A model generated the notes under the pieces. That model did not search any database, was not told where the DNA came from, and worked only from the letters and a program-made list of their open reading frames with translations. A stretch of DNA of 64,000 nt, taken from assembly GCF_900102795.1 (NCBI RefSeq), contig NZ_FMWG01000003.1, positions 248,001-312,000 of the forward strand. The letters run 5' to 3'. Both the position numbers and the translations under genes were made by a program. The DNA is from Epibacterium ulvae (GTDB lineage: Bacteria; Pseudomonadota; Alphaproteobacteria; Rhodobacterales; Rhodobacteraceae). Each line of letters begins with the position of its first letter. Within the stretch, counting starts at the first letter, position 1. This document shows, piece after piece, positions 20,712 to 47,888 of the stretch.

Positions 20712-21431
20712 TCAGGCGCCGACCGCGATGCGATGATCTTCAGGCATCGCTTCCTCCTGCGGGTCCCGCAGAACATAGCCTCGTCCCCAAACGGTTTCGA
20801 TATAGTTGTCGCCACCTGTCGCTGTACTTAGCTTCTTGCGCAACTTACAGATGAAAACATCGATGATTTTCAGCTCAGGTTCATCCATGCCGCCATACAA
20901 ATGGTTCAGGAACATCTCCTTGGTCAGAGTTGTACCTTTGCGCAATGAAAGCAATTCAAGCATCTGGTATTCTTTGCCCGTCAGATGCACAGCTTTGTTG
21001 TCAACTTCAACGGTTTTCGCATCCAGATTAACCGAGATTTTGCCGGTTTTAATAATAGACTGCGAATGCCCTTTTGAACGACGGATAATCGCATGGATCC
21101 GTGCGACCAACTCTTCACGATGGAAAGGTTTGGTCAGATAGTCGTCCGCACCAAAGCCGAACCCTTTGATCTTGTTCTCGGTATCATCTGCACCAGACAA
21201 GATTAGGATCGGAGTCTCAATCCGCGCCATACGCAGCTGGCGCAAGACCTCATGACCATTCATATCTGGTAGACCCAGATCCAAGAGGATCAGATCATAA
21301 TCGTAAAGTTTCGCAAGATCGATACCCTCTTCACCTAGATCCGTCGTATAGACGTTCAGGTTGGCATGGGTCAGCATAAGTTCAATGCTTTTTGCTGTTG
21401 TCGGATCATCTTCAACTAGAAGAATACGCAT
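20712..21431 (-). CDS. ctrA: Cell-cycle response regulator CtrA
   Basis: CtrA is an OmpR-family regulator that, when phosphorylated through CckA and ChpT, binds TTAA-N7-TTAA boxes. In roseobacters it mainly controls motility, gene transfer agents and related functions. The 239-residue protein has a receiver domain with phosphoacceptor Asp51 and Lys in TKPFHREEL, then a winged helix with the CtrA-typical [18 protein letters not shown] (quoted in part). The spacing of its upstream box suggests autoregulation. Its inhibitor gene sciP lies directly upstream in the same direction, and its kinase gene cckA is 24 kb away in this window. Confidence 0.97.
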
Positions 21432-21493
21432 ATTCTATGTTCTCCGCCTGTACACTGTTTCCCTCAGGTTGAATTAACCGTGATCGAAAAAGG

Positions 21494-21508
21494 TTAACGC
21501 CTCGTTAC
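21494..21508 (-). promoter_or_regulatory. Imperfect CtrA box upstream of ctrA
   Basis: On the minus strand the site reads GTAA-N7-TTAA and continues CC, one mismatch from TTAA-N7-TTAA. It lies 62 bases before the ctrA start codon. Confidence 0.55.
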
Positions 21509-21568
21509 CATGTTTATTAATTCTTTCGTTTGGAACAAGTGCGCAGAGAAATCAGTTGGAAAATAGTC

Positions 21569-21847
21569 CTATGTGTCACGGAATTTCTTCAATTGTGTTG
21601 TCTTTAAGGCCTCTTCGCCATGATCGGCCACCGCAGCAACCCAACTGCGGAACTCTTCATCGCTCAACCCGTATTTTTTTAATGCCTCTGTTTGGGGAAT
21701 CAGCCCGTATAGCACGCCGCGTACAACAGCTGCTTTTCGTGACGCCACCCAACGACGCGTGTTTTCTGGCGGCAAATCCGCACGTGTCATGATGCTGCCA
21801 TCAGGCAAGGTCACCGCACGGGGGCCATCTACTTTTTTCAAAAACAT
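21569..21847 (-). CDS. sciP: CtrA inhibitor SciP (DUF1153)
   Basis: SciP is a small helix-turn-helix protein that binds CtrA and blocks activation of CtrA promoters in Caulobacter. This 92-residue protein matches the family along its length: GPRAVTLPDGSIMTRADLPP (quoted in part, residues about 8-20), RWVASRKAAVV and the helix LSDEEFRSWV. It lies 137 bases upstream of ctrA in the same direction. The pairing is a recurring alphaproteobacterial arrangement. The intergenic region between them carries the imperfect CtrA box. Confidence 0.93.
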   Translation of the reverse strand: MFLKKVDGPRAVTLPDGSIMTRADLPPENTRRWVASRKAAVVRGVLYGLIPQTEALKKYGLSDEEFRSWVAAVADHGEEALKTTQLKKFRDT

Positions 21848-21930
21848 CGCTTAATCCTTTGCGGACCTGTATTTTTTCGCTCAGCCTCAGGTTTCGGCGG
21901 CTTTCCTTAACGATCAGTAAAACCTGCCCC

Positions 21931-21958
21931 TTGAGAGTCTGTAGGATTTTCCTATATT
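21931..21958 (+). promoter_or_regulatory. Probable sigma-70 promoter of mnmA
   Basis: TTGAGA and TATATT are separated by 16 bases, about 40 bases upstream of the mnmA start. Confidence 0.45.
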
Positions 21959-21997
21959 CTGCGACGCTTATGCTCTTTGCCTGATTGGAGACGCCAC

Positions 21998-23143
21998 ATG
22001 GCGCTGGATACAAACCACCCTGTGAACCTGCTTGGCTTTGCAAAACCGCCCTCTGAGACCCGAGTCGTCGTCGCTATGTCTGGCGGCGTAGATAGCTCTG
22101 TAGTGGCTGCATACCTTGCAGATCAAGGCTTTGACGTGGTTGGCGTGACACTCCAACTTTATGATCACGGCGCGGCATTGGCTAAAAAAGGCGCTTGTTG
22201 TGCGGGCATAGATATTCATGATGCCCGCCGGGTTGCCGAAGAGCGCGGCTTTCCGCATTACGTTCTAGATTATGAGAACATTTTTAAGGATGCCGTGATA
22301 GATGAGTTCGCAGACAGCTATTTGGCGGGTGCGACTCCTGTCCCCTGTATCCGATGCAATGAGCGCGTGAAGTTCAAAGACCTTCTCGAAACCGCCAAAG
22401 ACCTGGAAGCTGACTGTATGGCGACCGGTCACTATATTCAGCGCAAAATGGGTGAGCACGGTCCTGAATTGCACAGCGCCGAAGATGCAAATCGCGATCA
22501 GAGCTATTTCTTGTTCTCGACCACGCCAGAGCAGTTAAACTTCTTGCGTTTTCCTTTAGGGCATCTGCCCTCCAAAGACGCAACCCGCGAGATGGCAGCA
22601 CAATATGGGCTGGCCGTGGCCGATAAACCTGACAGTCAGGACATCTGCTTCGTCCCAGATGGGAATTATGCCAGTGTTATTGAAAAACTACGTCCGGGGG
22701 CCGCAGAACCTGGAGACATCGTTCACCATGATGGCCGCGTTCTTGGTAAACATGAAGGTGTTATTCACTATACCATCGGTCAGCGTCGCGGCCTTGGGAT
22801 AGGTGGCTTATCAGAGCCACTTTATGTGGTGCGTTTGGATGTCGATAAAAAACATGTGGTCGTAGGTCCCAAAGAGCTGCTTGCCACGCGTAAAATCCCG
22901 GTCCGCGAAATCAACTGGCTGGGAGACCAGCCATTCACATCGCAAAAAGAATGGCACCTAAAAGTAAAAGTCCGTTCCACCCGCCCCCCAAGAGAGGCAA
23001 TCATACGACCTTTGTCAGAGACAACGGCAGAGGTGGAATTGCTCACCCCCGAAGAAGGCGTCTCCCCCGGTCAGGCCTGCGTTTTCTATGCAAATGAAGA
23101 CAGCCGTATTTTTGGCGGCGGCTGGATCTGGCGGGGGTATTAA
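21998..23143 (+). CDS. mnmA: tRNA 2-thiouridylase MnmA
   Basis: MnmA thiolates U34 of tRNA(Lys), tRNA(Glu) and tRNA(Gln). The 381-residue protein has the ATP pyrophosphatase motif SGGVDSSV, the catalytic cysteine in [13 protein letters not shown] and the second cysteine in [11 protein letters not shown]. The [10 protein letters not shown] tRNA-binding segment is present. The ATG at 21998 is chosen because TTGGAG lies nine bases upstream. It is divergent from sciP. Confidence 0.97.
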
Positions 23144-23150
23144 GTTACCT

Positions 23151-23439
23151 CCTTGAGCACGACGCTCAACCCTCCCCCATCCCACGTCTAAAGCCAAAAC
23201 TACATCACTCGCACGTACAGAATAAATTCCCAAATGAGAACTGCTCTGTTTTACAGGAGTGACAGAAGGCCCAAGAGATTTCCTGTACTGTTGGAAAATA
23301 TACCCCTTCAAAGTTACCGTAATTTTCTATTAGCGTGAAATGCAACTTTTACGGTATCTTTTCTATTTTTAAACACTTTCTTAATATTTCAAAAATTACA
23401 AGAATTTACACAATTTCACTTTAAAGACAAAGGTTTAAC
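23151..23439 (+). other. AT-rich promoter region of the RTX gene
   Basis: No gene is visible. TTGAGC/GCTCAA at 23151-23168 forms a small hairpin after mnmA. TACCGTAA (23315-23322) and TTACGGTA (23349-23356) are perfect inverses 26 bases apart. The last 100 bases are very AT-rich. Confidence 0.4.
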
Positions 23440-24450
23440 ATGCCTCAAACACCCGATAATATCCCACATATTCCTGTAGGCCATTCCTTTTACAATATCA
23501 CTGGTGATTGGACCGCTCCATACTACGGCAACTATCGCGCCTCTGCCTCTACCGAGTTTGCATATGACAATAAGTTCCATTCAGGTAACGGGCACGACAT
23601 ATTAGATGGTTGGGATGGGAATGACTCCATCTATGCAGCTGGTGGCGACGATATCGTTCAAGGAGGAGCTCATGATGATACAATTAGCGGAGGTAGTGGA
23701 GATGATTGGCTTTACGGTGACTACTCATTCGGAGAAAGTGCGCACGATGGAGCCGATTACATTGTTGGCGGTACTGGCGACGACTATATATTTGGCGGCG
23801 GCGGCAATGATACTTTACTAGGTCTACAAGACGATGACACGATCGAAGGTGGCAGTGGTAACGACTCGTTACGTGGTGATGATGGCCTAGACCTACTTAG
23901 CGGCGGCACTGGAAACGATACGCTCAATGGTGGATCCGGTAACGACACGTTACTTGGAGATGATGGTAACGACTCATTGCTTGGTGACGACGGTCTAGAC
24001 CTGCTTAGCGGCGGTACTGGAAACGATACGCTCAATGGTGGATCTGGTAACGACACGTTGCTTGGAGATGATGGTAACGACTCATTGCTTGGTGACGACG
24101 GTCTAGACCTACTTAGCGGCGGTACTGGAAACGATACGCTCAATGGCGGCTCTGGCAACGATACCCTACTTGGAGATGACGGTGATGATTTACTCTTCGG
24201 CGCTTTTGGCGACGATGTGCTAACCGGTGGGGAAGGCGCAGACTCCTTCGTGTTTATTGCGGACAACGGCGTAGATGTTGTTAGCGACTTTAGTCAAGGC
24301 GAGGATCTGCTTGTTTTTGCAGGCGCAACATCTCTATCGTTAGCCGAGTTTAATGGGGATGCGCTATTCATCCTCAATGAAAACTCCTACATCCTGCTCG
24401 AAGATATCGAGGTCCAGACAATTACCTCATCCGACTACACATTTATCTAA
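23440..24450 (+). CDS. RTX (hemolysin-type calcium-binding repeat) secreted protein
   Basis: This 336-residue protein is built mainly of GGxGxDxLx nonapeptides, from about residue 49 to 275, which fold into a calcium-binding beta-roll outside the cell. There is no Sec signal. The C-terminal 60 residues (VVSDFSQGEDLLVFAG... ending DYTFI) look like a type I secretion signal. No type I transporter gene is adjacent, so export would rely on one elsewhere. The N-terminal 45 residues have no recognisable domain, so this may be a structural or adhesive repeat protein rather than an enzyme. Three 36-residue blocks are almost identical. Confidence 0.88.
   Translation: MPQTPDNIPHIPVGHSFYNITGDWTAPYYGNYRASASTEFAYDNKFHSGNGHDILDGWDGNDSIYAAGGDDIVQGGAHDDTISGGSGDDWLYGDYSFGESAHDGADYIVGGTGDDYIFGGGGNDTLLGLQDDDTIEGGSGNDSLRGDDGLDLLSGGTGNDTLNGGSGNDTLLGDDGNDSLLGDDGLDLLSGGTGNDTLNGGSGNDTLLGDDGNDSLLGDDGLDLLSGGTGNDTLNGGSGNDTLLGDDGDDLLFGAFGDDVLTGGEGADSFVFIADNGVDVVSDFSQGEDLLVFAGATSLSLAEFNGDALFILNENSYILLEDIEVQTITSSDYTFI
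23875..24198 (+). repeat. Three tandem 108-base repeats inside the RTX gene
   Basis: Copies run 23875-23982, 23983-24090 and 24091-24198, each encoding four nonapeptides beginning GDDGLDLLS. Copies 1 and 2 encode identical residues and differ at seven codons, all synonymous. Copy 3 diverges at its 3' end. Confidence 0.95.
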
Positions 24451-24523
24451 AGATATATCAACTATTGAGGCGTTTGAACAAAGCGCCTCAGTCATCTTGT
24501 TGCGAGCGAAAGCGTCTATAGAT

Positions 24524-25681
24524 TTAGAGAGCAGCTAAAATCGCTTGAGCAGCACGAGTCCCCGGTGCAGCACCACCCTCCCCTAAACTCTGCATAGTCA
24601 ATGCCATTGCGTCCTGCTGTGCTTTGGGGTTTTGCAAAACACGCTCCAGTTCAAGAAAAATGTTCTGCGGATGGCAGTCCGGGCCCAGACATTCTGGAAC
24701 CACACGCGTATCACTGACCAAATTGACCAGTGTTGCTGTATCAATCAAAGCCATACGTTTCATCATCTGCCACGTGAGCCAATTGAAATTATACGCAATC
24801 ACCATTGGTGTGCGGGCGGCAGCCAGCTCTAACGAAACTGTTCCGGATGCTGCAAGAGCCAAATCCGCTCCAGCAAAGGCCGCACGTTTGTGACGTTTCA
24901 TTTCATCAACGGACAAGTTTGTCGGATCTAAAATGACGGTTTCAACTGGCCAGCTTTGCAATTCTTCCCGAACAAGATCCGCAACCGGACCTGCTGCAGG
25001 TACAACAACGCGAAACTCAGGGTGTTTTAGAACAAATTCCCCCAAGGCGGCACCAAACACAGGCGCAAGACGCCCCACTTCAGATCGGCGAGATCCCGGC
25101 AATGCTAAAAGAAACGGGGCATCATCAAGCCCATATGATTCACGAAAGTGCTGAATATCCTTCGGTGTTGCTGGAGGTTCTGCCACGACCGGATGCCCGA
25201 CAAAGTCGCAGCGCATGCCAGCTGCTTCCATATAAGGTGGTTCAAACGGCAAAAGCGCCAGAACATGATCGATACACCTGGCCATCTTGACGGCACGTTT
25301 AGGGCGCCAGGCCCAAACGGACGGGGCAACATAGTGCACCGTCCGTATGTCGCTGTGTTCTTTGACTATTTTCGCCACACGTAGACAAAAATCAGGACTA
25401 TCAATAGTGATCAATACGTCTGGTTTTGATGTAATAACAGCTTCCGCAGTTTCGCGAATGCGACGTTTCAGGTGGCGATACTTGGGCAGAACCTCTGCAA
25501 TCCCCATCACCGACAGCTCTGCCATTGGAAACTGGGAGACCAAGCCTTGCTCTTGCATCAATGCACCACCGATGCCAGAAAATTCCACATCAGCTTTGAG
25601 TGCGCGCAAACCTGCCATCAGTGCGCCGCCCAAACGATCGCCAGAGGGCTCTCCCGCGACAACAAAGACCCGCAGGCTCAT
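24524..25681 (-). CDS. lpxB: Lipid-A-disaccharide synthase
   Basis: LpxB joins UDP-diacylglucosamine and lipid X into the lipid A disaccharide at the inner membrane. The 385-residue protein has the GT-B family motifs VVAGEPSGDRLGG at the N terminus and SGTVSLELAAARTPMVIAYN (quoted in part) near the C terminus. The ATG at 25681 overlaps the lpxI stop by four bases. It is the last gene of the envelope cluster and converges with the RTX gene. Confidence 0.97.
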   Translation of the reverse strand: MSLRVFVVAGEPSGDRLGGALMAGLRALKADVEFSGIGGALMQEQGLVSQFPMAELSVMGIAEVLPKYRHLKRRIRETAEAVITSKPDVLITIDSPDFCLRVAKIVKEHSDIRTVHYVAPSVWAWRPKRAVKMARCIDHVLALLPFEPPYMEAAGMRCDFVGHPVVAEPPATPKDIQHFRESYGLDDAPFLLALPGSRRSEVGRLAPVFGAALGEFVLKHPEFRVVVPAAGPVADLVREELQSWPVETVILDPTNLSVDEMKRHKRAAFAGADLALAASGTVSLELAAARTPMVIAYNFNWLTWQMMKRMALIDTATLVNLVSDTRVVPECLGPDCHPQNIFLELERVLQNPKAQQDAMALTMQSLGEGGAAPGTRAAQAILAAL

Positions 25682-26466
25682 ACCTGACGCACCCAGAGGA
25701 ACAGGCCCAATCGGTCGCAAGCGTCAACAACCGCATCACGCTCTAACACAATGACGCCGCCTGCTTCGATAACGATACCTGATAATGCCGCCTGGGCCAC
25801 CTGCTCCACTGTGTCAGGACCAATTGTGGGAAGATCTGCACGTCTTTCTTGTCCAGGTTTTGGCGCCTTGTACAACAGGCCACCTTCGCCATCGGGACGT
25901 ATTGCGAGACTGTTCAGCATCCATTGCGTTCCAAACTGCCCTTCAATCGCAATAGCTTGCCTGTTGCGGATCGCACAGGATTGTCCAACATCGACAGCTG
26001 CCATTGCGGTCACCACCTCTGCACCACGTGCTGCATCTGCTTTGTCGATTTCACCGGGTTGGACAGAGGTCAGTACGCCCTCTGCCAAAAGGAGATCAGG
26101 CGCAACATCATGTGCGGCACGAACCGTAAAGCCAGATTTTTCAAAAATTTGGATGACGGCACGCAACGCCCCATCATCCCCCTGCCCTAAGGCTGCTTGT
26201 AAGATAGGTACCAAGGGCAAAGTTGCAGCATCAATTGCAGCCGGATCAATATGGGGGCGCGCGACAGCCCCCGCCATGCAAATCTCTGTTATATCCGCAG
26301 ATTTAAGACGTTCAATAAAACTGCCAAGATGCTCCAGTCGGAACACCAATTCCGCGTCAACGTAATCAGGTTCTGACCCGTGCAGAGCACATATTAAAGG
26401 CCGCGCCTTAAGCCGTCCGGCAACTTCGTGCGGCAAGCGCCCAGTCCCGGCAATAAGAGCCAACAT
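25678..26466 (-). CDS. lpxI: UDP-2,3-diacylglucosamine pyrophosphatase LpxI
   Basis: LpxI hydrolyses UDP-diacylglucosamine to lipid X, the step done by LpxH in E. coli. The 262-residue protein (DUF1009) begins with LALIAGTGRLPHEVA and has the later EGTDGTLRR-like region here as QGDDGALRAV, and the C-terminal TIGPDTVEQVAQA segment. It overlaps lpxB by four bases and follows lpxA by three, so supply and use of lipid X are coupled. Confidence 0.95.
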   Translation of the reverse strand: MLALIAGTGRLPHEVAGRLKARPLICALHGSEPDYVDAELVFRLEHLGSFIERLKSADITEICMAGAVARPHIDPAAIDAATLPLVPILQAALGQGDDGALRAVIQIFEKSGFTVRAAHDVAPDLLLAEGVLTSVQPGEIDKADAARGAEVVTAMAAVDVGQSCAIRNRQAIAIEGQFGTQWMLNSLAIRPDGEGGLLYKAPKPGQERRADLPTIGPDTVEQVAQAALSGIVIEAGGVIVLERDAVVDACDRLGLFLWVRQV

Positions 26467-26469
26467 ATT

Positions 26470-27255
26470 TTACCCTCCAGGCGTCAAGAACGAGCGATCA
26501 CTTTGACCTGTGATAAATCCAACGATTTCTTTCACATAGCTGCTATCAGTTTCATCCCCGAGGCGTCGCGCCCGTTCCTGAAAAGTGCCTTCGCCCTGTG
26601 CCAGCATCTGAAAAGCAGCCCTTAAAGCTGTAATATCAGAGCGTTGAACGCCGCGCCGCTTCAAACCAACAAGATTTAGACCGTCCAACTCTCCACGCGG
26701 TGCCTGGACAAGCCCATAGGGAATGACGTCATTGGTTACCATTGTAACGGCACCAATAATTGCGCCTTTGCCGATCCTGACCCATTGATGAATACCAGAC
26801 AATCCGCCAATGATCACATCGTCTTCCAACACACAATGACCCGCCACCGCTGCAGAATTCACGACGATCACACGATCACCGATCTGGGCATCATGGGCTA
26901 TATGACATCCGGCCATAAAGAGCCCATCATCCCCAATTTTTGTGATACCGCCGCCGCCTTCCGTCCCCGCATTTACGGTCACATGTTCCCGGATGCGATT
27001 GCGTTTGCCGATGATTGTTTGGCAGGCTTCGCCCTTAAATTTCAAATCTTGTGGAATTTCACCAAGTACAGCAAAAGAAAACACCACTGTGTCTTCCCCG
27101 ATCTGGGTATTGCCTGTCACAACCACATGGGATTTCAGCTGAACCCGATCCCCCAGCACAACATTTGCACCAACGACGCAAAACGGACCAATTTCTACAT
27201 CATCACCTAGGATTGCTCCGTCTTCGATAACTGCACTGGGGTGGATCTGGGACAT
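26470..27255 (-). CDS. lpxA: UDP-N-acetylglucosamine acyltransferase
   Basis: LpxA adds the first 3-hydroxyacyl chain to UDP-GlcNAc. The 261-residue protein is mainly a left-handed beta helix of hexapeptide repeats, from IHPSAVIEDGAILGDDVEIG onward (quoted up to 20 residues), with the catalytic His in GCHIAHDAQIGD. The helical C-terminal domain is present. It lies between fabZ (five bases upstream) and lpxI. Confidence 0.97.
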   Translation of the reverse strand: MSQIHPSAVIEDGAILGDDVEIGPFCVVGANVVLGDRVQLKSHVVVTGNTQIGEDTVVFSFAVLGEIPQDLKFKGEACQTIIGKRNRIREHVTVNAGTEGGGGITKIGDDGLFMAGCHIAHDAQIGDRVIVVNSAAVAGHCVLEDDVIIGGLSGIHQWVRIGKGAIIGAVTMVTNDVIPYGLVQAPRGELDGLNLVGLKRRGVQRSDITALRAAFQMLAQGEGTFQERARRLGDETDSSYVKEIVGFITGQSDRSFLTPGG

Positions 27256-27260
27256 GATGA

Positions 27261-27725
27261 TTACCCTTCCTGACGGTCAACCATCGCGGTGAACTCTGCC
27301 TCAGCGGCAACCTCACCTTCAACACTTGCAACGCCATGGAATTTAAAGATCTTACCACCGGGCTTACCGCGTGTGGTTGTAACCTTCATTTCTAAAACAT
27401 CCCCCGGAATTACTTTACGGCGGAACTTACATTTGTCGATGTTCATGAAATAGATCAGCAATTCTGTATCGATCATATCCATACCAACACCAAGCATCAC
27501 ACCTGCCGTCTGTGCCATCGCTTCGACAATCGTCACGCCCGGCATAATCGGAGTGCCAGGGAAATGCCCTTGGAAATGGGGTTCATTCATGGTGACGTTT
27601 TTAATGCCGCGAGCGGATGTATAGCCGTCAATATCAACAACTTTATCGACAAGAAGAAACGGATAGCGATGTGGCAGAATCCGTTGAATCAGGTGAATAT
27701 CGGCACTTTTCAGCTCTGCGCTCAT
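27261..27725 (-). CDS. fabZ: 3-hydroxyacyl-ACP dehydratase FabZ
   Basis: FabZ dehydrates 3-hydroxyacyl-ACP in fatty acid elongation and competes with LpxA for the same substrate. The 154-residue hot-dog protein has the catalytic His in [15 protein letters not shown] and the catalytic Glu in IVEAMAQ. It is next to lpxA, as in most Gram-negative bacteria. No lpxD gene separates it from skp, in contrast to the E. coli order. Confidence 0.97.
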
Positions 27726-27802
27726 GAGAAATTTCCCGTCATTTGATCTTAACTTGAGACGTGGGTATCAACTGTAACAGCTCAGAACAAGGGCACGCGC
27801 CC

Positions 27803-28408
27803 TTATTCCAACGGATCAGTCAGGCGGATACCATCGCCTAAAACAGCATTGATCCGAGCGATCGCGAGCTGTGTGATATCGGCACTGGCAGAGCTTAGGA
27901 ATACGGTAGATTTTTCAAGAATTGCCCCCGCTCCCGCCTCGATCATGATTTCTTGTAAAATTGGATCTGCAGCTTCTAAAAATTCGCGCCGAGCTGTGTC
28001 GCCGATCTCATTGATTTCGCGTAATTTTTGCTCTTGCGTGCGTCGTGTGAGTTGCACTTTTTGATCAAAGGCATCAGCCAACCGACGAAAGGCTTCCGGG
28101 TCCATCTCTCCGCGACGGGCAACCAAATCCTGCTCTTCTTCGCGAAGATCCGATTCAATACGCCGATTTTCAGCCGTAAGCACAGCGCCCTCGGCCTCGA
28201 TCTCTTGCGCGACCCGTTTACCAAAAGTGCTTTCGCGAAAAAACAAATCCGACTGGATCGTCACAACACCACTTTGTGGGACACCAAGATTCAGTACAGT
28301 TGTTGGCGCAGGTTGATAATTTTGAGCGTGAAGAGATCCGGCAAAAAATGACGCCGCCCCTAAAACAGAGGCGACGCACCAACGTATATTTGGTCGCTTA
28401 ACGTTCAA
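27803..28408 (-). CDS. skp: Periplasmic chaperone Skp/OmpH
   Basis: Skp-family proteins hold unfolded outer-membrane proteins in the periplasm for BamA. The 201-residue protein has a signal peptide (about residues 1-28) and a long charged helical middle (LREEEQDLVARR, FDQKVQLTRRTQEQKLREI) that forms the tentacle. It starts three bases after the bamA stop, so both outer-membrane assembly proteins are made together. AAGGGC/GCCCTT at its end forms a small hairpin before fabZ. Confidence 0.9.
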   Translation of the reverse strand: MNVKRPNIRWCVASVLGAASFFAGSLHAQNYQPAPTTVLNLGVPQSGVVTIQSDLFFRESTFGKRVAQEIEAEGAVLTAENRRIESDLREEEQDLVARRGEMDPEAFRRLADAFDQKVQLTRRTQEQKLREINEIGDTARREFLEAADPILQEIMIEAGAGAILEKSTVFLSSASADITQLAIARINAVLGDGIRLTDPLE

Positions 28409-28411
28409 AAT

Positions 28412-30802: not shown

Positions 30803-30908
30803 TTTTAACCCACTTTATCGCAACTTTTTACATGTGCGTAACGGGTTTGAAGACCGTTGTCAAAAGCAACTCTACCGTGTCAAAGCTGTTAGCAAGAACA
30901 GGCGCATT

Positions 30909-30923
30909 TTAACAACGTTTTAA
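30909..30923 (-). promoter_or_regulatory. Predicted CtrA box between the 41-residue gene and bamA
   Basis: A perfect TTAA-N7-TTAA, starting four bases after the 41-residue gene's stop and 106 bases before bamA. The trailing C seen at other sites is absent. Confidence 0.4.
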
Positions 30924-30926
30924 GGG

Positions 30927-31052
30927 TCATTGAACGATCAGAGCCAAGCCCAAATATAGACTTCCGATGATCAAAGAGGCCGTCAAAAACAAATCAAAAT
31001 TGAGGCGAAGCAACAGATTCAGGCCTTTGTAGGAAAAATTCATCTTTTGCAT
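30927..31052 (-). CDS. Small 41-residue membrane protein between rseP and bamA
   Basis: This short frame has GGAG five bases before its ATG. The product begins MQKMNFSYKGLNLLLRLNFD, polar and basic, then has a single hydrophobic helix (LFLTASLIIGSLYLGLALIV, residues about 21-40) and ends one residue later. I know no named family for it. It sits inside the rseP-bamA interval of the envelope cluster, in the same direction, but a perfect CtrA-type box 48 bases upstream suggests its own promoter. It could be a small regulator of envelope assembly or a cell-cycle-controlled membrane peptide; this is inference. Confidence 0.65.
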   Translation of the reverse strand: MQKMNFSYKGLNLLLRLNFDLFLTASLIIGSLYLGLALIVQ

Positions 31053-31099: not shown

Positions 31100-31114
31100 T
31101 TAACAAAACTTTAA
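31100..31114 (-). promoter_or_regulatory. Predicted CtrA box upstream of the 41-residue gene
   Basis: A perfect TTAA-N7-TTAA lying 47 bases before the start codon, almost the same distance as the box before cckA. On the minus strand the second half continues with G rather than C. Confidence 0.5.
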
Positions 31115-38394: not shown

Positions 38395-38450
38395 AGATAT
38401 TTTACAATCACAACCTTAAAGAGAAATATCTGATCATACGCACAGCTATA

Positions 38451-38465
38451 TTAAATTTTAATTAA
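38451..38465 (+). promoter_or_regulatory. TTAA-N7-TTAA in an AT-rich stretch before the AraC gene
   Basis: The match is perfect but the spacer and flanks are also almost pure A/T and the trailing C is missing. It could be chance. Confidence 0.25.
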
Positions 38466-38574
38466 AGTTTACCGATGGACCTTGAAATGCTGTAGTAACA
38501 CAGTTGTCTTTTCAGTTCGAATCACTTGCTGAGACTTGGAAAGCATCACCGTTCATTTGTATTCCGTTTGCCCT

Positions 38575-39378: not shown

Positions 39379-39427
39379 CAGTTGACCGCGCATGTCGCCT
39401 CATATTTGACACAAGACATACTACAAG

Positions 39428-39458
39428 CAAAAAAAACCGCAGCTATAACCACTGCGGC
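39428..39458 (-). terminator. Rho-independent terminator of the alaS-DUF1330 unit
   Basis: Read leftward, CCGCAG and CTGCGG arms close a nine-base loop and are followed by eight T. It lies just after the DUF1330 stop. Confidence 0.9.
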
Positions 39459-39474
39459 CTCACCACCATAAAGA

Positions 39475-39762
39475 TTACTCTGTAACCTCTACGACAAGTA
39501 ATTCACGCTCTGATGCATCCCGCGCATGGGATAGAGCCTCTTGGTAATCCGCACTATTGTAACAGGCGACCGCAGCTTCAACGCTTGGAAATTTTGCGAC
39601 CACGTTACGTGGACGCTCTTTTCCTTCAAGCTGAACATACCGCCCACCGCGTGCAATAAAGCTGCCACCATGTTTGGCAATCGCTGGGCCTGCCAATTCT
39701 GCATATTTCCCATAAGATTCAGAATCTGTGACAGTTACATGCGCAATCCAAAGTGCACTCAT
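39475..39762 (-). CDS. DUF1330 family protein
   Basis: This is a 95-residue dimeric ferredoxin-like alpha/beta protein. Typical family segments are YGKYAELAGPAIAKHGGSFIARGG and NVVAKFPSVEAAVACYNS (shortened: AIAKHGG, FIARGG, FPSVEAA). Family members have no agreed function. It starts three bases after the alaS stop and shares its transcript, which ends at a strong terminator. Confidence 0.9.
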   Translation of the reverse strand: MSALWIAHVTVTDSESYGKYAELAGPAIAKHGGSFIARGGRYVQLEGKERPRNVVAKFPSVEAAVACYNSADYQEALSHARDASERELLVVEVTE

Positions 39763-39765
39763 ATC

Positions 39766-42417
39766 TTAACCCTCCAACAATCGTTCAGCAGCAGCAATCG
39801 CATCTGCGGCGCCTGAGAAATCTTTCCCGCCGCCTTGCGCCATATCTGGGCGGCCACCGCCACCTTTGCCACCTACAGCGGGAACCGCAGCCTTTAGTAC
39901 ATCAACCGCAGAAATCTGTTCTTTCAGATCATCTGTTACACCAGCGGCAACCGCTACTTTCCCGCCGTCATCTGCAATGAGCAGGATAACACCGGATCCG
40001 ATCTTTTGCTTATGTGCATCAATCAAGCCGCGTAGATCTTTGCCAGACACTCCTTCAAGCGCCTGCCCCAGGAAAGTCTTGCCATTGATCTCTTTGGTTT
40101 CAGCACCTGCGCCACCACTACCCCCCATCGCAACCTCACGCTTGAGGTTCGCAACTTCATTCTGCAAGGCTTTGCGCTCGTCCATCAACGCCTTTAGGCG
40201 ATCCACCACTTCAACCGGCTGCGCCTTGAGCGCACCCGCAATTTCAGCCATGCGCCCGGCTTCGGTTGCCAGATAATCAAAGGCCGCTGCACCTGTCAGC
40301 GCTTCAATCCGGCGTACCCCAGCGGAAGACGCGCTATCGCCTAGGATCACAAAGGTGCCAATGTCCCCTGTCTGTTTGACATGAGTACCGCCGCATAATT
40401 CGATTGAATAGGTTTCGCCGTCCTGACCCTTACCGGTTTCGGCACGCCCCATTGATACAACACGGACTTCTTCCCCATATTTTTCACCAAACAGGGCTTG
40501 CGCACCCAAAGCGCGTGCATCATCCGGTGTCATAATACGGGTTGTAACTGCACTGTTTTGGCGAATAAAATCATTCACTTCCCGGCTCACAATAGACAGT
40601 TCTTCGCTGCTCATCGCTTTATTGTGGCTGAAATCAAACCGCAGGCGATCGTTTGCATTCAACGATCCCTTCTGCGCCACATGATCACCTAGGGCATTGC
40701 GTAGTGCTTCATGAAGCAGGTGCGTGGCAGAGTGGTTGGCCCGGATCTGCGCACGACGCCCATGATCCACAACCATGGCTGCACCAGCCTCCACAGAAAC
40801 TTCACCCTCAGTGACCTCTGCGATATGTAAGAACAGGCCTTCAACTTTTTTGGTGTCCGTTATCGTCGCCGCACCACCTTCGATCGTCAACTGACCACTG
40901 TCACCGACTTGGCCACCGCTTTCTGCATAAAATGGCGTCTGGTTCAAAATAACCTGAACGCTATCGCCTTTGACAGCCTTATCAACCTGCAAACCATCTT
41001 TCACGATGGCCACGATTTGGCCTTCTGCTGTTTCGGTTTCATAGCCAAGAAACTCGGTTGAGCCTTTGGCATCCAGAATATCGAAGTAAACTTTTACGTC
41101 CGCGGCTTCACCCAGACCAATGCCACCTGCACGTGATTTTTCTTTCTGTTCTTTCATCGCCGCATCAAAGCCGTCCGTGTCGACCTCAATCTCTTTTGCA
41201 CGCAGCGCGTCCTGTGTCAGATCAAGCGGGAACCCATAGGTGTCATACAGTTTAAACGCAGTTTCACCCGGTAGCGTATCGCCTTTATCCAGATCTGCAG
41301 AAGCATCATCCAGCAGCTTCAACCCACGATCTAAAGTTTTCAGAAAACGGGTTTCTTCCTGTTCAAAAGTCTCTTCGATCAGCGCCTGCCCCTGTCCAAG
41401 TTCAGGATAGGCCGCCCCCATTTTCTGTACCAATGATGGCACGAGCTTGTGCATCACTGGATCTTTTGCCCCCAACAAAGACGCATGGCGCATCGCCCGG
41501 CGCATAATACGGCGCAGCACATAGCCGCGTCCTTCATTGGAGGGCAAAACACCTTCTGCAATCAGGAACGAACAAGAGCGCAAATGATCCGCAATGACCC
41601 GATGATGAACATTCTGATCGCCAAAGGGGTCAGTATTGGTTGCATCAGCAGAGGCTTCGATCAACGATTTAAACAGGTCGGTTTCATAGTTGTCATGGGT
41701 ACCTTGCAAAAGCGCCGCAATCCGCTCCAACCCCATACCGGTATCAATGGATTGCATATCCAAATCCACCATAGACCCATCTGCGAAACGCTCGTTCTGC
41801 ATGAAAACAAGGTTCCAGATCTCGATGAACCGGTCTCCGTCTTCCTCGGGGGAACCGGGAATACCGCCCCAGATATGATCGCCGTGATCGTAGAAAATTT
41901 CAGTACATGGGCCACAGGGACCGGTGTCGCCCATCTGCCAAAAGTTATCCGAGGTCGCGATACGGATAATACGGTCCTCTGGAACACCAAGTTTCTTCCA
42001 GATTTCAAAGGCTTCATCATCGGTGTGATAAACAGTGGTCAACAGGCGTGACTTATCGATCGCAAATTCTTTGGTGATTAGCTCCCACGCAAAGGGGATC
42101 GCGTCGTGTTTGAAATAATCGCCAAAGGAAAAGTTGCCGAGCATTTCGAAAAACGTGTGATGGCGCGCGGTGTAGCCGACGTTATCGAGATCGTTGTGCT
42201 TTCCGCCTGCGCGCACACATTTCTGCGAGGTTGTGGCACGCACATAGTCCCGCTTTTCGACGCCGGTAAAACAGTTCTTGAACTGCACCATCCCTGAGTT
42301 GGTGAACATCAAGGTCGGATCGTTGCGCGGCACCAAGGGGCTGGAGTCCACAACTTCATGGCCTTGTTTGGCAAAATAGTTGAGGAAGGTGGAACGAATA
42401 TCGTTAAGGCTCGGCAT
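39766..42417 (-). CDS. alaS: Alanyl-tRNA synthetase
   Basis: AlaRS charges tRNA(Ala). The 883-residue protein is full length, with the class II catalytic core at the N terminus ([17 protein letters not shown] ... [19 protein letters not shown], each below 20), the editing domain zinc motifs (NHSATHLLH and [13 protein letters not shown]) and the C-terminal oligomerisation region with a glycine-rich [19 protein letters not shown]1330 follows in the same transcript. recA is its next conserved neighbour, but two small genes lie between. Confidence 0.98.
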
Positions 42418-42661
42418 CTCGGGATCTCTTTTTCAGAGGGAATTATAGCATCTGATCCGGTGTATCCCGGCGCTGGGGTGCTGTCCACAGGGGGTGTTGT
42501 GATAAACCCCTGATGCTGTGAAATATCCACGCAAGGTCATGTGGTGGCGTCGCTTACCTGACGATGAGCTTAGGCTGTGTCTGTTATCACGCACGGGATG
42601 ACAGACACGCCGAAACTTCCCAATTGATAGAGTGAAATTGGCGTACTCTTTTACTTGTGCG

Positions 42662-43012
42662 TTACTCGCCGTCGTTTTCTTTGAAGTAATATGGTGAAAA
42701 AGGAGCGTCGAAATGTCCGTCACTGAACATATCATTCACATAATCTGGAAGCATCTCTCCCAGTAATTCATAGTACGCAGTGTGGAGCAGTTTATATGCG
42801 CGAGGATCATCAAAGCTGCCCAAAAATTCGTTCACCTGGTCGACGGTCTGATAGTGTAACGGCTGATGAAAGAAGCGGTTAAATTCGCCGAGTGTGGCGT
42901 GAACTTTCAATAGATCTCGCAATGGCACTTGTACGGTGGTGTTAGCATCAATTTTTTCGTCGATACCGTAGTTTGCGCATGCGATCAGATCTTTTGAGTA
43001 TGTCTTCGCCAT
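42662..43012 (-). CDS. Hypothetical protein, 116 residues
   Basis: This is a small soluble, acidic protein with no signal peptide or membrane segment and many aromatic residues (FNRFFHQPLHYQ, AYYELLGEML, FDAPFSPYYF). I do not recognise a family. The start at 43012 has GAGAAA just upstream; an in-frame ATG 12 bases earlier is the alternative. It faces away from the frameshifted DUF4265 gene, and together they form a small islet between alaS and recA. It may be accessory. Confidence 0.55.
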   Translation of the reverse strand: MAKTYSKDLIACANYGIDEKIDANTTVQVPLRDLLKVHATLGEFNRFFHQPLHYQTVDQVNEFLGSFDDPRAYKLLHTAYYELLGEMLPDYVNDMFSDGHFDAPFSPYYFKENDGE

Positions 43013-43163
43013 CGAGTTTCTCATTTTTGTGAAATATTGCTACATAGCTGAGCGCGTAATCAGTAATGTCTGGACGAGATGGTGAAGATACCGAATTTCC
43101 GCGTACGTTAAATTATAGGGTGAAGTTTTTATATTAGAATTCAATAGGAATTAAGGACGTTAA

Positions 43164-43258
43164 ATGGAAAAGATATTTTTGATCGACAAGATGATGCATG
43201 GCACGGGTTCGCTTCTGAAAGTGTATGGGCGACCAATCTTGGTAAAGGTTTATTCAAG
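43164..43258 (+). pseudogene. Frameshifted 5' part of the DUF4265 gene
   Basis: Starting at the ATG at 43164, with AAGGACG upstream, the frame reads MEKIF and then leaves the family pattern. The other frame, from the T run at 43176-43180 onward, reads DRQDDAWHGFASESVWA and joins the intact downstream frame. Adding one T to the run of five would fuse the two into a protein of about 147 residues. So one base is missing here, by mutation, by sequencing error, or the gene is read by slippage. Confidence 0.7.
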
Positions 43259-43606
43259 ATGGAGAACTCCCTGTTTTTCGCAAAAGGGGTTAGTTTCGAG
43301 GACATTGTTGAAACTCAGTTGATCGACGGACGAAACACCTTCGTAAAAACGATCACTAGATCGGGCCATTCAACCTATCGCATTGTGACAGTTGCAAACT
43401 GTATACCAGAGGCTTTTGAACGCTTCTGGCGGCCTTTACAGAACGCCGGCTGCCTGTTTGAGAGTGGCGATTTTGGCTTTGTTCTTTATTCGGTCGACGT
43501 ACCTGCAAACGCGGATATTAGTCTAGTATATGCTCTTCTTGAAGAAGGCGAGCGGAACGGGATTTGGGATTTTGAAGAGGCGCACTTTGGCCATTCAGTG
43601 ATATGA
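43259..43606 (+). CDS. DUF4265 family protein (in-frame portion)
   Basis: This 115-residue frame holds most of a DUF4265 domain: FFAKGVSFEDIVE, STYRIVTV, and the C-terminal ALLEEGERNGIWDFEEAHFGH. The function of the family is unknown. The expected N-terminal strand is encoded upstream in the same frame (back to 43176) but has no start codon there; the start lies in another frame because of a one-base shift. Translation may begin at the internal ATG at 43259, giving a shortened protein. It converges with recA. Confidence 0.75.
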   Translation: MENSLFFAKGVSFEDIVETQLIDGRNTFVKTITRSGHSTYRIVTVANCIPEAFERFWRPLQNAGCLFESGDFGFVLYSVDVPANADISLVYALLEEGERNGIWDFEEAHFGHSVI

Positions 43607-43637
43607 GAAGGGCGCAGCCGAAGCTGTGCCCTTCTCA
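43604..43637. terminator. Bidirectional hairpin between the DUF4265 gene and recA
   Basis: Fourteen-base arms TGAGAAGGGCGCAG/CTGTGCCCTTCTCA pair with one mismatch around a short loop. Neither side has a good T run, but its position between two converging stops fits a terminator. Confidence 0.6.
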
Positions 43638-43641
43638 TAAA

Positions 43642-44712
43642 TCACCCCTCAAGAATATCGTCATCCTCGGCGATCTCAGGCTTTTCAAACTCCAGCCCAT
43701 GTGAGGCGCGGATTTTGTCTTCGATCTCATAGGCTATGCTGGGGTTTTCCTTCAGGAAGGTCTTGGCGTTTTCACGCCCCTGCCCGATGCGTTCATCCCC
43801 ATATGAGAACCACGCCCCCGATTTATTCACAATCCCGGCGGTGACGCCCAAATCCAAGAGTTCACCCATTTTCGAGATGCCCTCGCCATACATGATATCG
43901 AATTCGACCTGTTTGAACGGGGGGGCGACCTTGTTCTTGACGATTTTCACGCGGGTGGCATTCCCTACGACCTCATCCCGGTCTTTCAATGCGCCGATAC
44001 GGCGGATATCCAACCTAACAGACGAATAGAATTTCAACGCATTCCCGCCGGTAGTCGTTTCGGGCGAGCCGAACATAACGCCGATCTTCATGCGGATCTG
44101 GTTGATGAAAATAACCATACATTTAGAGCGCGAGATGGAGCCTGTCAGCTTGCGCATAGCCTGGCTCATCAAACGGGCCTGAACGCCAACATTGCTGTCA
44201 CCCATATCGCCTTCGAGTTCAGATTTCGGCGTCAGCGCCGCAACCGAATCCACAATCACCATGTTCACCGCACCCGAGCGCACCAGCGTGTCGGTGATTT
44301 CCAGCGCTTGTTCGCCAGTGTCGGGCTGTGAAATCAACAGCTCATCGAGATCAACGCCCAGCTTGGCCGCATACTGTGGATCTAGCGCGTGCTCCGCATC
44401 AACAAAGGCACAAACACCGCCCTTTTTCTGCTGCTCTGCTATACAGTGCAGCGTCAATGTCGTCTTACCCGAGCTTTCGGGGCCGTAAATTTCAACGATA
44501 CGACCCATTGGCAAACCGCCAATGCCCAGTGCAATGTCCAACCCCAGAGAGCCGGTGGACGAGGCTTCGATCTCTTGCAACGGATTACCGTCGCCCAATT
44601 TCATGATTGAGCCCTTGCCAAATTGCCGCTCAATCTGTGCCAAAGCGCTATCGAGCGCTTTTTGCTTGCCGTCGTCGTTCTTGTTCTTTTTCATGGTCAA
44701 AAGATCCGCCAT
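43642..44712 (-). CDS. recA: Recombinase A
   Basis: RecA drives homologous recombination and triggers LexA self-cleavage in the SOS response. The 356-residue protein has Walker A (GPESSGKT, residues 77-84), [13 protein letters not shown], the L1/L2 DNA loops ([35 protein letters not shown]) and an acidic C terminus (EDDDILEG). The ATG at 44712 has GGGACAAGGGA upstream and gives the usual length. A perfect GTTC-N7-GTTC box lies 57 bases upstream. Confidence 0.98.
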
Positions 44713-44768
44713 AGTCCCTTGTCCCTTTCTATGTGTCATACCCGCGCGTCGGCGGCAATCACTGCTTT

Positions 44769-44783
44769 GTTCACCTCTTGTTC
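44769..44783. promoter_or_regulatory. LexA SOS box of recA
   Basis: GTTC-N7-GTTC is perfect. This direct repeat is the established LexA site of Rhodobacter and related alphaproteobacteria. It lies 57-71 bases before the recA start, in the gap to the divergent sulfotransferase gene. A second, one-mismatch copy (GTTC-N7-GGTC, minus strand) is at 44791-44805. Confidence 0.85.
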
Positions 44784-44905
44784 CAATATGGACCAAAAAG
44801 AGAACATTGCAAGGCAAAACTTCTACTACCCAGAACATTCTGTGACTGTTAATAAGTGATTTACATCAACCTTTGGTTTGCATTATTTACCGGGCGCTTA
44901 ACGAA

Positions 44906-45499
44906 ATGCTTGTATTTTTAAAGGAAAACTTGGTTCTTTTATCTGTGCCCAAAACGGGGACCACAGCGCTGCACGAGGCTTTAAAGGACCGCGCTGATAT
45001 CGTGATTTCCAATCCACCCGAGCTCAAACATTCTCCGGTTTATCGCTATAACCGCTGGTTCAGACCGATGTTCTCGAAAGTCTGCGACAAAGAACCTGAA
45101 CTTTGCGCGGTTGTTCGAGAGCCTATCAGTTGGCTGGGCAGCTGGTATCGGTACCGACAACGCCCTCTGATTGATGGACAGCCGACCTCAACCAAGGGAG
45201 TAAGTTTCGATGACTTTGTGCACAGCTATTGCCGCGGAAAACAATCACCTTACGCAAATGTCGGCAGTCAGGCCAAATTTCTGGAAGCACAACCAAATGG
45301 ATGTGCGGTTCAGCATTTGTTTCGCTACGAAAACATAGACGCCTATCATCAATTTCTACAGGCGCGTCTTGCGACGACACTAGACACGAAAAAAACGAAT
45401 GTCAGCCCAAGTGGTGACCTGAGCCTGAGTATGAAGACCGAAGCCCTGTTTCGTCGAAAAAAACCAGAAGAATTTGAACTTTATAATAGCGTGACCTAA
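44906..45499 (+). CDS. Sulfotransferase-family protein
   Basis: This 197-residue protein has the two PAPS-binding elements of sulfotransferases: a 5' phosphosulfate loop near the N terminus (SVPKTGTTALHEAL) and a 3' phosphate site (VVREPISWLGSWY). It is shorter than most (250-300 residues) and lacks a signal peptide. The substrate is unknown. The ATG at 44906 has no clear ribosome binding site. It is divergent from recA, and its stop overlaps the cckA stop by three bases, tail to tail. Confidence 0.8.
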   Translation: MLVFLKENLVLLSVPKTGTTALHEALKDRADIVISNPPELKHSPVYRYNRWFRPMFSKVCDKEPELCAVVREPISWLGSWYRYRQRPLIDGQPTSTKGVSFDDFVHSYCRGKQSPYANVGSQAKFLEAQPNGCAVQHLFRYENIDAYHQFLQARLATTLDTKKTNVSPSGDLSLSMKTEALFRRKKPEEFELYNSVT

Positions 45500-47823
45500 G
45501 CTGCCTCGGTCACCCCTTGCAACTGTTCATGCACCGTTTCCGTCAATTGGTTCAAAGAGAATGGTTTTGGAAGGAAGACAGAATTTGGCACTTCAGGTTC
45601 GTCTTCATCAAATGCGCCTTCCGAATATCCTGACATAAAGACCACGCGCGTCTCTGGGCGCACTTTTAAGGCCTCACGGACCCAACTGGGGCCATCCATA
45701 CCTGGCATGACCACATCGGTCACAAAAACATCAACATGCAGTGATGGATCTTCAAGTTGGCTAAGCGCATCTTCGGCGTTTTCTGCCTCTAGCACGGTAT
45801 ATCCACGCATCCTTAAAGCACGTGACGCAAAAGCACGAACGGGTGCTTCGTCTTCAACCAGCAAGACTACGCCCTCTCCATGATTTGGAGCAGTGTCTGC
45901 CGCTTTCTCAACTTTTTCGACATTGACCTCGGGCTGTGCCTTATAGACCGGGAAGTAGAGTATGAACTGCGTGCCCTGTCCTTTGACAGAATCGACAAAG
46001 ATAAAACCACCTGTCTGCTTGATAATTCCATAGGCCGTAGACAGGCCAAGACCAGTCCCTTCACCCGTGCGCTTTGTCGTGTAAAACGGCTCAAACACCT
46101 TTTCAACGCGATCGGGATCAATCCCGATCCCTTCATCTGAAACGCGAACCGTCACCCAGTCTCCCTCGGGCACAACTGCGCGGTTTCGCTGCAAAGCCTT
46201 GTGCAGGTGTACGACTTCGGTTTCCACGCGAATCTCACCGCCCTGTGGCATTGCATCACGGGCATTCACGACAAGATTCATCAAGACCTGTTCCAATTGT
46301 CGTTTGTCCGCGCGAATATTTTTCATGACTGGATCATGGCTCAGTGTGAGAGTTACTTTCTCACCGACCAGCCGGTTCAACAGGTGCGTTAGATCAGAAA
46401 GAGTATCACGTACGTCAATTACCTCAGGCTGAAGCGTTTGTTTCCGCGAGAAAGCCAGCAGCTGGCTCACAAGAGATGCAGCGCGATTCGCGTTTTCATG
46501 GATCTGAATCAGATCTCCATAATCCTGATCCCCCTGATCATGCCGCAACAAAAGCAAATCACAGTGGCCAGATATTGCTGTCAGGAGATTATTGAAATCA
46601 TGAGCAACCCCCCCCGCCAGCTGTCCAATCGCCTGCATTTTTTGGCTTTGTACAAACTGCGCTTCCAGAGTTTTCAACTCGGTCGCGTCATTAAGCACGG
46701 CAATCAGCATCGGCTCTCCGTCTTCGAGTACCCGTGAGAGAGTAACCTGGACAAAAACCTCTTTATCTCGGCGCGCTATGCGTAGAAATTCTGATTTGTG
46801 CGGCGCAACACCTTTGGCAGTGTCATCCAGCCAATCTGCCATTGGCCGACCAAGCCCCTCCATCAACTGACCCAGCTTGATACCATCGCAGTTTGCGACA
46901 CCTAACAGGCTCAAAGCCAAACGATTAGCAGATAAAACATCCCCATTTGGAGCAACTTTGACAAATGGCACTGGTAGTTTTTCAAAACTGGTTTGCCCAT
47001 TTGAAAGCTCGGAATCGTTGATTTTTGAAACGTGATAATCAACGCGCCCGTTTTCCCTACTCTGCACCGTTACTGCAACTTGGACAGGTCCCGTTTTTGT
47101 AAGGATCGTATGGATTTGCCCGCTTTCGGTCGGGAGATTCTCAAACAAATGATCCGCAGATCGGGTGCGTTCTCCAATCAGGGTACGTGCGGCTTCGTTC
47201 ATAAACCGCACCGCGCCTGTGCGTCCAACAGTGATCATCGCAACAGCAGATGTATCCTGTCGCCGGTTAGATGAGGGAACAGTATTGTTCAAATCTTCGA
47301 CACGCCACAGAAAGCTGCCACTGGCCATCTGATGCACAGCGACACGAATCTGCCCTCGGCGGGTCGTGATATCTTCGCGGGCGGTTCCTTCTGCACTTGC
47401 ACGGCTTTTTAGGCGAAACAAAACAGCTGGAGGATTGGCCAATACGGACCGCAAAGCCCCTGCTAAAGTTTCGCGCTCGGCGCTTGGAAACCGTTGTACA
47501 GCGGCGTTGTTACATGCATGAATGACGCCATCTTCGTCTGTGACAAAGCTTGGCGTTGCATCTTTCTCGATAAATCCGGTCAACAAATCTGTCGCCATGT
47601 CACGCGTGCGCCGCCGTAACCGGCTTTGTGCAAGCATGAAGCCAGACACAAGCGTAAGCGTAAGCCCAACCGCAGTCATCCCCCGCCCAAGCCAGTCCGC
47701 CAATGGAACCACCAGAGGTGTCCCAAGCATCAACGCTGAAACTGCCACTGTCGCCATAAGACGAGAGGTTTCAGGAGAAAAAATGCGCAGCTCGGGTACG
47801 TTGGTAATCTGGCGACCGATCAT
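45496..47823 (-). CDS. cckA: Hybrid histidine kinase CckA
   Basis: CckA autophosphorylates and passes phosphate via ChpT to CtrA. The 775-residue protein has two N-terminal membrane segments (about residues 22-42 and 47-66), PAS domains (about 85-180, 190-270, 280-390), the H box with His408 (GGVAHDFNN), an ATPase domain (N box NLVVNARDAM, G box GTGLGLSTAYG) and a C-terminal receiver with Asp703 in VTDVVMPGMDG. This layout matches CckA of other alphaproteobacteria. A perfect CtrA box precedes it, so CtrA may control its own kinase. Confidence 0.93.
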   Translation of the reverse strand: MIGRQITNVPELRIFSPETSRLMATVAVSALMLGTPLVVPLADWLGRGMTAVGLTLTLVSGFMLAQSRLRRRTRDMATDLLTGFIEKDATPSFVTDEDGVIHACNNAAVQRFPSAERETLAGALRSVLANPPAVLFRLKSRASAEGTAREDITTRRGQIRVAVHQMASGSFLWRVEDLNNTVPSSNRRQDTSAVAMITVGRTGAVRFMNEAARTLIGERTRSADHLFENLPTESGQIHTILTKTGPVQVAVTVQSRENGRVDYHVSKINDSELSNGQTSFEKLPVPFVKVAPNGDVLSANRLALSLLGVANCDGIKLGQLMEGLGRPMADWLDDTAKGVAPHKSEFLRIARRDKEVFVQVTLSRVLEDGEPMLIAVLNDATELKTLEAQFVQSQKMQAIGQLAGGVAHDFNNLLTAISGHCDLLLLRHDQGDQDYGDLIQIHENANRAASLVSQLLAFSRKQTLQPEVIDVRDTLSDLTHLLNRLVGEKVTLTLSHDPVMKNIRADKRQLEQVLMNLVVNARDAMPQGGEIRVETEVVHLHKALQRNRAVVPEGDWVTVRVSDEGIGIDPDRVEKVFEPFYTTKRTGEGTGLGLSTAYGIIKQTGGFIFVDSVKGQGTQFILYFPVYKAQPEVNVEKVEKAADTAPNHGEGVVLLVEDEAPVRAFASRALRMRGYTVLEAENAEDALSQLEDPSLHVDVFVTDVVMPGMDGPSWVREALKVRPETRVVFMSGYSEGAFDEDEPEVPNSVFLPKPFSLNQLTETVHEQLQGVTEAA

Positions 47824-47873
47824 TGCGGCTCCATGCGTTGGCTTAAAGGTACTTCATAAGTCAATAATCAAAG

Positions 47874-47888
47874 TTAAGGACGCGTTAA
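47874..47888 (-). promoter_or_regulatory. Predicted CtrA box upstream of cckA
   Basis: On the minus strand the site reads TTAA-N7-TTAAC, a perfect match, 50 bases before the cckA start. The trailing C lies on the gene side, as in characterised CtrA promoters. Confidence 0.65.

Follow-up and report, generated by a model that had tools for sequence, protein, structure and literature searches.

A CtrA phosphorelay node in Epibacterium ulvae and an apparently undescribed structured RNA upstream of trmFO in the Roseobacter group

The closest described counterparts of the CtrA system treated here are the CckA-ChpT-CtrA phosphorelays of Dinoroseobacter shibae and Ruegeria sp. KLH11, which, in the available parts of the published accounts, have CtrA sites before ctrA and cckA. 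CtrA control of these two genes was predicted for cluster B, a part of the Rhodobacterales (PMC2877005); in D. shibae, CtrA binding sites precede both genes (PMC4046655), and cckA transcripts drop upon loss of ctrA or chpT (PMC7232146), while a full CtrA site lies before cckA of KLH11 (PMC3692519). Among the small RNAs (sRNAs) of the Rhodobacteraceae, the parts of the reports at hand describe UpsM of Rhodobacter sphaeroides as an sRNA within an extended 5' leader, preceding the dcw cluster (PMC5089854), and CcsR1-4 as adjoining ccaF1 in the same species (PMC8307010). We analysed a stretch of 64,000 nucleotides (nt) from Epibacterium ulvae, hereafter the window, in which a sequence-only reading had seen a CtrA node with six perfect TTAA-N7-TTAA boxes. 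In our judgement two things were likely read as one: a CtrA node with boxes at some of its genes and, at position 12306, an RNA hairpin oriented towards trmFO. The node itself is ordinary, the feedback on ctrA and cckA being already published. The find here is a structured RNA that is widespread in a major group of marine bacteria, keeps a fixed place in the genome and has no Rfam match. Its locus comprises the following features.

12227..12256, plus strand: TTTAC/TTTCC tandem, period about 21, similar to a tandem in related loci
12304..12322, plus strand: hairpin P1 (GGTTAAC-GCGAT-GTTAACC), scored over 130 sequences, which contains box 12306
12340..12419, plus strand: core of the structured RNA, in which GUCCCUCC and CUCUC are near-invariant, defined by covariance model R1 and covariation
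12518..13867, plus strand: trmFO, the downstream neighbour of the RNA (NCBIfam NF003739, 666.6 bits), with a presumed start in an open reading frame (ORF) that opens at 12449

The structured RNA occupies approximately nt 12262-12425 of the plus strand. A long covarying stem holds two near-invariant, pyrimidine-rich single-stranded stretches, GUCCCUCC and CUCUC, and nt 12325-12445, folded alone, gave a z-score of -5.96 against its own shuffles. Model R1 was built from an alignment of 20 sequences (A2), and covariation was counted on a larger alignment (A4) of 97 matches from 98 loci. In A4, 86.7% of the cells pair, compared with at most 53.0% when the structure is slid, and changes on both sides of a pair occur in 320 cells (28-68 when slid; 125, standard deviation 11, when shuffled), distributed over 17 of the 21 pairs. 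An unguided prediction (RNAalifold) returned 12 pairs, which make up the outer stem and the tip hairpin; of these pairs, 10 are compensatory. The element is a structured RNA with compensatory changes beyond the controls. The excess of G-U over A-C cells (64 versus 24, nine of the latter from out-of-register rows) favours the plus strand, so that the RNA is probably on the strand of trmFO. Several points weigh against this picture: A4 was fitted to the model, which favours the structure of that model; for 16 of 20 sequences the more stable fold of the core is that of the minus strand, and one sequence is tied; and no U-run follows the core, so that a terminator is not evident.

Relatives were sought in 61 genomes, comprising 18 of the same genus (the E. 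ulvae genome included), 19 from other genera of the family and 24 from other families. The R1 model matched at full length and at one place per genome in 20 of them, namely all 18 of the same genus together with G022 and G026. In larger searches, 56 of 394 family genomes had a match (E ≤ 0.01), at least that in G143 resembling a chance hit, and a draw across the order gave matches in 77 of 292 genomes (E ≤ 0.001), all of them within the family of the window. These searches use strict filters and misses are therefore expected. Set aside as chance-like were the match in G143 (22.3 bits, on stretch L369, which lacks trmFO) and that in L250 (Streptosporangium), the latter being left out of the P1 and tandem-element counts given below. 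The genera with the RNA among the matches listed include Ruegeria, Sulfitobacter, Tateyamaria, Roseobacter, Phaeobacter, Pseudophaeobacter and Epibacterium. Over the stretch compared, the element of the E. ulvae locus L270 is identical to that of the same-genus genome G008, which makes the genus of the window probably that of E. ulvae. The position is highly consistent, as trmFO lies downstream in the same orientation in 39 of 40 family loci (the exception being L177) and in 77 of the 80 loci that are named, out of 116 stretches; the other three are the chance hit L250 and two loci that are cut off (L232 and L290). A tandem TTT(C/A)C...TTTCC element with a period of 21-22 was found upstream in 51 of 130 loci that carry the RNA only and in 5 of 9 loci linked to a peroxidase gene (see below), compared with about 0.5% of shuffles, and is possibly a promoter or operator of the RNA.

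Searches of Rfam 15 returned no match at gathering score in the window, and only chance-level animal and protist families at nt 12100-12520. Over 10 relative loci the sole Rfam match was SorX (RF02784), at L192:55-112 (32.9 bits) and L104:3671-3746 (25.1 bits). Both matches lie away from the element and under the gathering score of 46.6, and SorX was rejected as its identity. StsR stays a candidate, the available part of PMC8307010 giving neither its place nor a matching sequence. The main text of a study of Ruegeria pomeroyi sRNAs (PMC4809877), the part covered here to the exclusion of its coordinate tables, contains no speE, spermidine, trmFO or gid, and the RNA may be among the trans-sRNAs of that study. 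In the literature searched we recognised no description of an RNA before trmFO in this bacterial group, and it is apparently undescribed so far.

Single strands of the CCUCC and CUCUC type are complementary to purine-rich ribosome-binding sites. The reading as a trans-acting sRNA is therefore favoured, in which the GUCCCUCC and CUCUC loops would pair with such sites and block translation of the targets; we give this proposal an even chance of being right. The anti-Shine-Dalgarno sRNAs of the CcsR/cuckoo type likewise present CCUCC-like single strands in a stable structure, but the RNA described here has a different fold, occurs in one copy per genome beside trmFO and has no Rfam match. UpsM is alike in its description. 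A second reading, possible though less than probable, takes the element not for a free sRNA but for a 5' leader that acts in cis on trmFO and, where one intervenes, on the peroxidase gene. This would explain why nearly all loci examined have the element directly upstream of trmFO and in the same orientation, and why a clear terminator is lacking after the core; however, the distance between RNA and trmFO varies widely, and in the peroxidase-linked loci the element sits inside another gene, about 1.3 kilobases (kb) from trmFO.

These peroxidase-linked loci also bear on the origin of the putative trans-acting RNA. The distance to trmFO is about 1.3 kb in G026 and in six of the 40 family loci, and there an ORF of the MRKWVTVGILSLQASLSLAADLP... 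type begins with the element. It specifies a CCP/MauG-family di-haem peroxidase (PF03150; L201 scores 121.8 bits) with its signal peptide encoded in the hairpin. In one of the six (G287) the gene is broken. A search for the peroxidase family found a homologue in 225 of 394 genomes at E ≤ 1e-70, and as 30 of these loci were fetched, the counts of linked genes are lower bounds. At least eight trmFO-linked peroxidase genes carry the hairpin and are matched by the R1 model (L328-L335), and at least eight are without hairpin and model match (L336, L337, L338, L340, L341, L343, L344 and L346). In three genomes the hairpin stands beside a broken peroxidase gene, which is in separate pieces in G287, a stub of 65 amino acids (aa) in G302 and fragments in G417; this indicates that gene loss with retention of the RNA is under way. 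The E. ulvae genome has no peroxidase homologue at E ≤ 1e-70. While the signal-peptide codons of eight trmFO-linked members of the MauG/CCP family form the same hairpin, the window holds the hairpin only. The RNA core is homologous to this hairpin, which in other genera belongs to the signal-peptide region of a MauG/CCP-type peroxidase gene beside trmFO.

A tree of the mature peroxidase proteins placed 13 of the 14 non-linked genes in one clade (support 100/100), and the hairpin genes require three changes among the trmFO-linked ones, a pattern from which peroxidase gene and hairpin look like old companions. The hairpin may have had an RNA role while it was still coding, and as the peroxidase gene decayed in one lineage after another, a noncoding RNA standing on its own would have remained, made up of the hairpin together with its upstream element. 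A Roseobacter-group regulatory RNA with two fixed CU-rich loops, born in peroxidase signal-peptide codons and outliving the decayed gene, is the leading, unproven origin, to which we give tentatively a little under an even chance. The reverse order, with the noncoding RNA before trmFO as the ancestral state and as the source of the signal-peptide codons of the peroxidase gene, appears rather unlikely. It would suit the prevalence of RNA-only loci (57, versus 8 with an intact linked peroxidase gene, in the trmFO-tree set), and the trmFO tree, with 41 of 83 inner branches open, leaves the order of gene and RNA unsettled; nevertheless, eight genomes have trmFO-linked peroxidase genes without the hairpin, and the three genomes with a broken gene beside a retained hairpin also run counter to it. 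With the intact gene, the broken gene and the RNA alone all found, the rise of noncoding RNAs from coding sequence becomes testable.

The remaining boxes of the window belong to, or were proposed to belong to, the CtrA node, the features of which are listed below (the boxes are given without strand).

20712..21431, minus strand: ctrA, response regulator
21494..21508: one-mismatch CtrA box, GTAA-N7-TTAA towards ctrA, 62 nt before the ctrA start
21569..21847, minus strand: sciP, encoding an inhibitor of CtrA, immediately upstream of ctrA
30909..30923: perfect box before bamA
31100..31114: perfect box preceding ORF 30927-31052 (41 aa)
38451..38465: perfect box in the AT-rich miaA-araC intergene
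45496..47823, minus strand: cckA, hybrid histidine kinase
47874..47888: perfect box, 50 nt before the cckA start
61254..61628, minus strand: unnamed membrane-protein ORF, about 124 aa, start codon uncertain
61689..61703: perfect box preceding ORF 61254-61628

The products of ctrA and sciP exceeded the equivalog cut-offs of their NCBIfam models (NF045991, 435.3 bits, cut-off 350, and NF051866, 117.5 bits, cut-off 100), and the SciP product also matched DUF1153. Relatives were compared over the best 30 loci per gene, taken from those of the 61 genomes that had a match (44 for cckA, 54 for ctrA, 55 for bamA, 48 for trmFO and 31 for slt), and in all 30 ctrA loci sciP lies directly upstream of ctrA on the same strand. 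The 45496-47823 product contains PAS, HisKA, HATPase and receiver domains, its two top NCBIfam matches are CckA models (511 and 438 bits), and the PDB has just two matches to it at E ≤ 1e-30, namely 5idj ('Histidine kinase') together with 5idm ('Cell cycle histidine kinase CckA'). Both scores stay under the cut-off of 1000 of these models, which counts against the assignment; by their names, the models were built for Brucella- and Caulobacter-type proteins. The protein is called CckA because of its domains, best family, best structure and the conserved box before its gene. The presence of ctrA, sciP and cckA, as claimed by the sequence-only reading, is borne out, with CckA under the NCBIfam cut-off. 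This is a genuine CtrA phosphorelay node of a Roseobacter-type bacterium, with sciP and ctrA in tandem and cckA apart, 24 kb from ctrA and likewise inside the window.

The window contains exactly six perfect TTAA-N7-TTAA boxes (12306, 30909, 31100, 38451, 47874 and 61689), none of which overlaps a coding sequence. None of 100 shuffles of the whole window reached six (mean 0.71, largest 5). Dinucleotide shuffles of the 6101 intergenic bases, delimited by our own gene list, gave a mean of 0.27 boxes, and again none of 3000 reached six. The 23 other spacings (2 to 25) had 13 sites together in the same intergenic DNA, with 0-2 each. Across the whole genome there are 33 N7 sites, compared with an average of 17.5 for each of 14 other spacings (278 sites, spacings 2-16), and six of the 33 fall in the window, which makes up 1.6% of the genome. 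The reversed pattern AATT-N7-AATT (72 sites) was rejected as a control, AATT and TTAA differing in frequency in the window (278 versus 173), and other spacings were therefore used instead. The earlier claim of six intergenic boxes in excess of chance holds, including in the shuffled-intergenic count that had been suggested as its check. The near matches reported before ctrA (21494) and speD (10636) are also present, each with one mismatch, as is a third before sciP (21907). However, the window has 30 boxes with at most one mismatch, the six perfect ones included, and a one-mismatch match alone therefore says little. The excess of boxes over chance is real, yet six boxes are not six CtrA targets.

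Conservation separates the boxes, and the view of all of them as CtrA sites stood only in part. The box before cckA is perfect in 28 of 30 loci, comprising 17 of 17 from the same genus and 11 of 13 others (the misses being L027 and L030). Before ctrA, a perfect box was found in none of 30 loci, whereas GTAA-N7-TTAAC is present in all 30, 65-86 nt before the start. At 61689, all 17 same-genus loci have a perfect box, and none of 13 others has it at that place; the box lies about 45-70 nt before the start of the membrane-protein ORF (start codons uncertain), a homologue of which, judged by eye, follows the box in all 17. This ORF has no Pfam or NCBIfam match. The box is asymmetric (TTAATG...CGTTAAC) and faces opposite ways relative to the gene in two subclades. 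The other boxes fared differently. Those at 30909 and 31100 are each perfect in only one of 30 loci, that of E. ulvae itself, with one-mismatch versions of the latter in L064, L065 and L066; box 38451 is absent from G003, the sole relative with a miaA-araC intergene that was compared; and box 12306 is perfect in just two of 30 loci, those of E. ulvae and its sister genome. The 41-aa hydrophobic ORF beside box 31100 (nt 30927-31052, minus strand) lies between rseP and bamA and has no Pfam match. It is conserved in its own right, ORFs of this type being visible in 16 of 19 bamA loci, with the start lying beyond the displayed stretch in the other three.

Conservation supports CtrA-type boxes at cckA, at ctrA (with one mismatch) and at 61689, and argues that those at ctrA and cckA matter. 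Binding of CtrA is very likely at two sites, the near-box upstream of ctrA itself and the box upstream of cckA; CtrA would thereby exert feedback on both regulator and kinase, with SciP opposing it. The membrane protein of about 124 aa is a candidate genus-level target. Weighing against such control is the finding in KLH11, as given in the available part of the report, that a cckA-lacZ fusion with the full site was unresponsive to added ctrA (PMC3692519); a box alone is therefore no proof of control. Compared with the phosphorelays of D. shibae and KLH11, the arrangement here differs, as far as sequence tells, in the 24 kb between cckA and ctrA and in the genus-level box before an unnamed membrane protein. 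The 30 loci back a feedback earlier described in few species, and one genus-level candidate target is added.

At 12306, relatives keep the hairpin, not the TTAA letters, and the long stem with its two fixed single-stranded stretches follows. The arms of P1 vary among them (for example AGGTT/AACCT, AGCC/GGCT and CGCC/GGCG), and those of E. ulvae are GGTTAAC and GTTAACC, which therefore yield a perfect TTAA-N7-TTAA box. Hairpin scores at this place add up to 773 over 130 sequences, compared with 472 for shuffled sequences (standard deviation 34, largest of 200 = 550). This scoring used an anchor, unlike the cut-out for free-energy z-scores, which were weak on average (-1.56 for 19 sequences and -0.92 for 130), partly from the loose placement of that cut-out. 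Speaking against P1 are its lack of significance in most single sequences, its absence from L094 and L103 among the first 19, and the 169-nt fold of the E. ulvae sequence, which favours another pairing at this place. P1 is supported by the sequence set, not by each member. The box at 12306 is probably a hairpin leading into the structured RNA rather than a CtrA box, and it serves as a warning that what reads as a perfect, palindromic CtrA box may turn out to be a hairpin of an RNA.

That all six perfect boxes, 12306 included, are CtrA operators, so that the window would hold the node and several of its targets, is improbable: N7 boxes do exceed shuffles and other spacings, and the E. ulvae and sister genomes are both perfect at 12306 with differing spacers, but the perfect boxes at 12306 and on the bamA side are confined to one or two loci and the relatives at 12306 retain pairing in place of the TTAA letters. 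Very improbable is that the conserved stretch is a small coding gene and not an RNA, since, although some same-genus relatives have, by eye, an open frame of about 30-38 codons across the element and the element is coding, as a signal peptide, in eight genomes, the frame in E. ulvae stops after seven codons, and the length changes among relatives and double stem changes fit an RNA, not codons. The open frames just mentioned, read by eye, start with A/GTG and were seen upstream of trmFO in L097, L098 and L101.

Two further features of the window lie outside these systems. A MocR-like regulator (nt 8822-10225, minus strand) is divergent from a DUF1127 ORF (nt 10321-10554, plus strand), and the gap between them holds an inverted pair, ATTGTATT/AATACAAT, at nt 10291-10306, which is possibly an operator. 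The ORF at nt 23440-24450 (plus strand) has many repeats of the GGxGND type, its translation contains internal copies that are nearly identical, and its product looks like an RTX-type calcium-binding protein.

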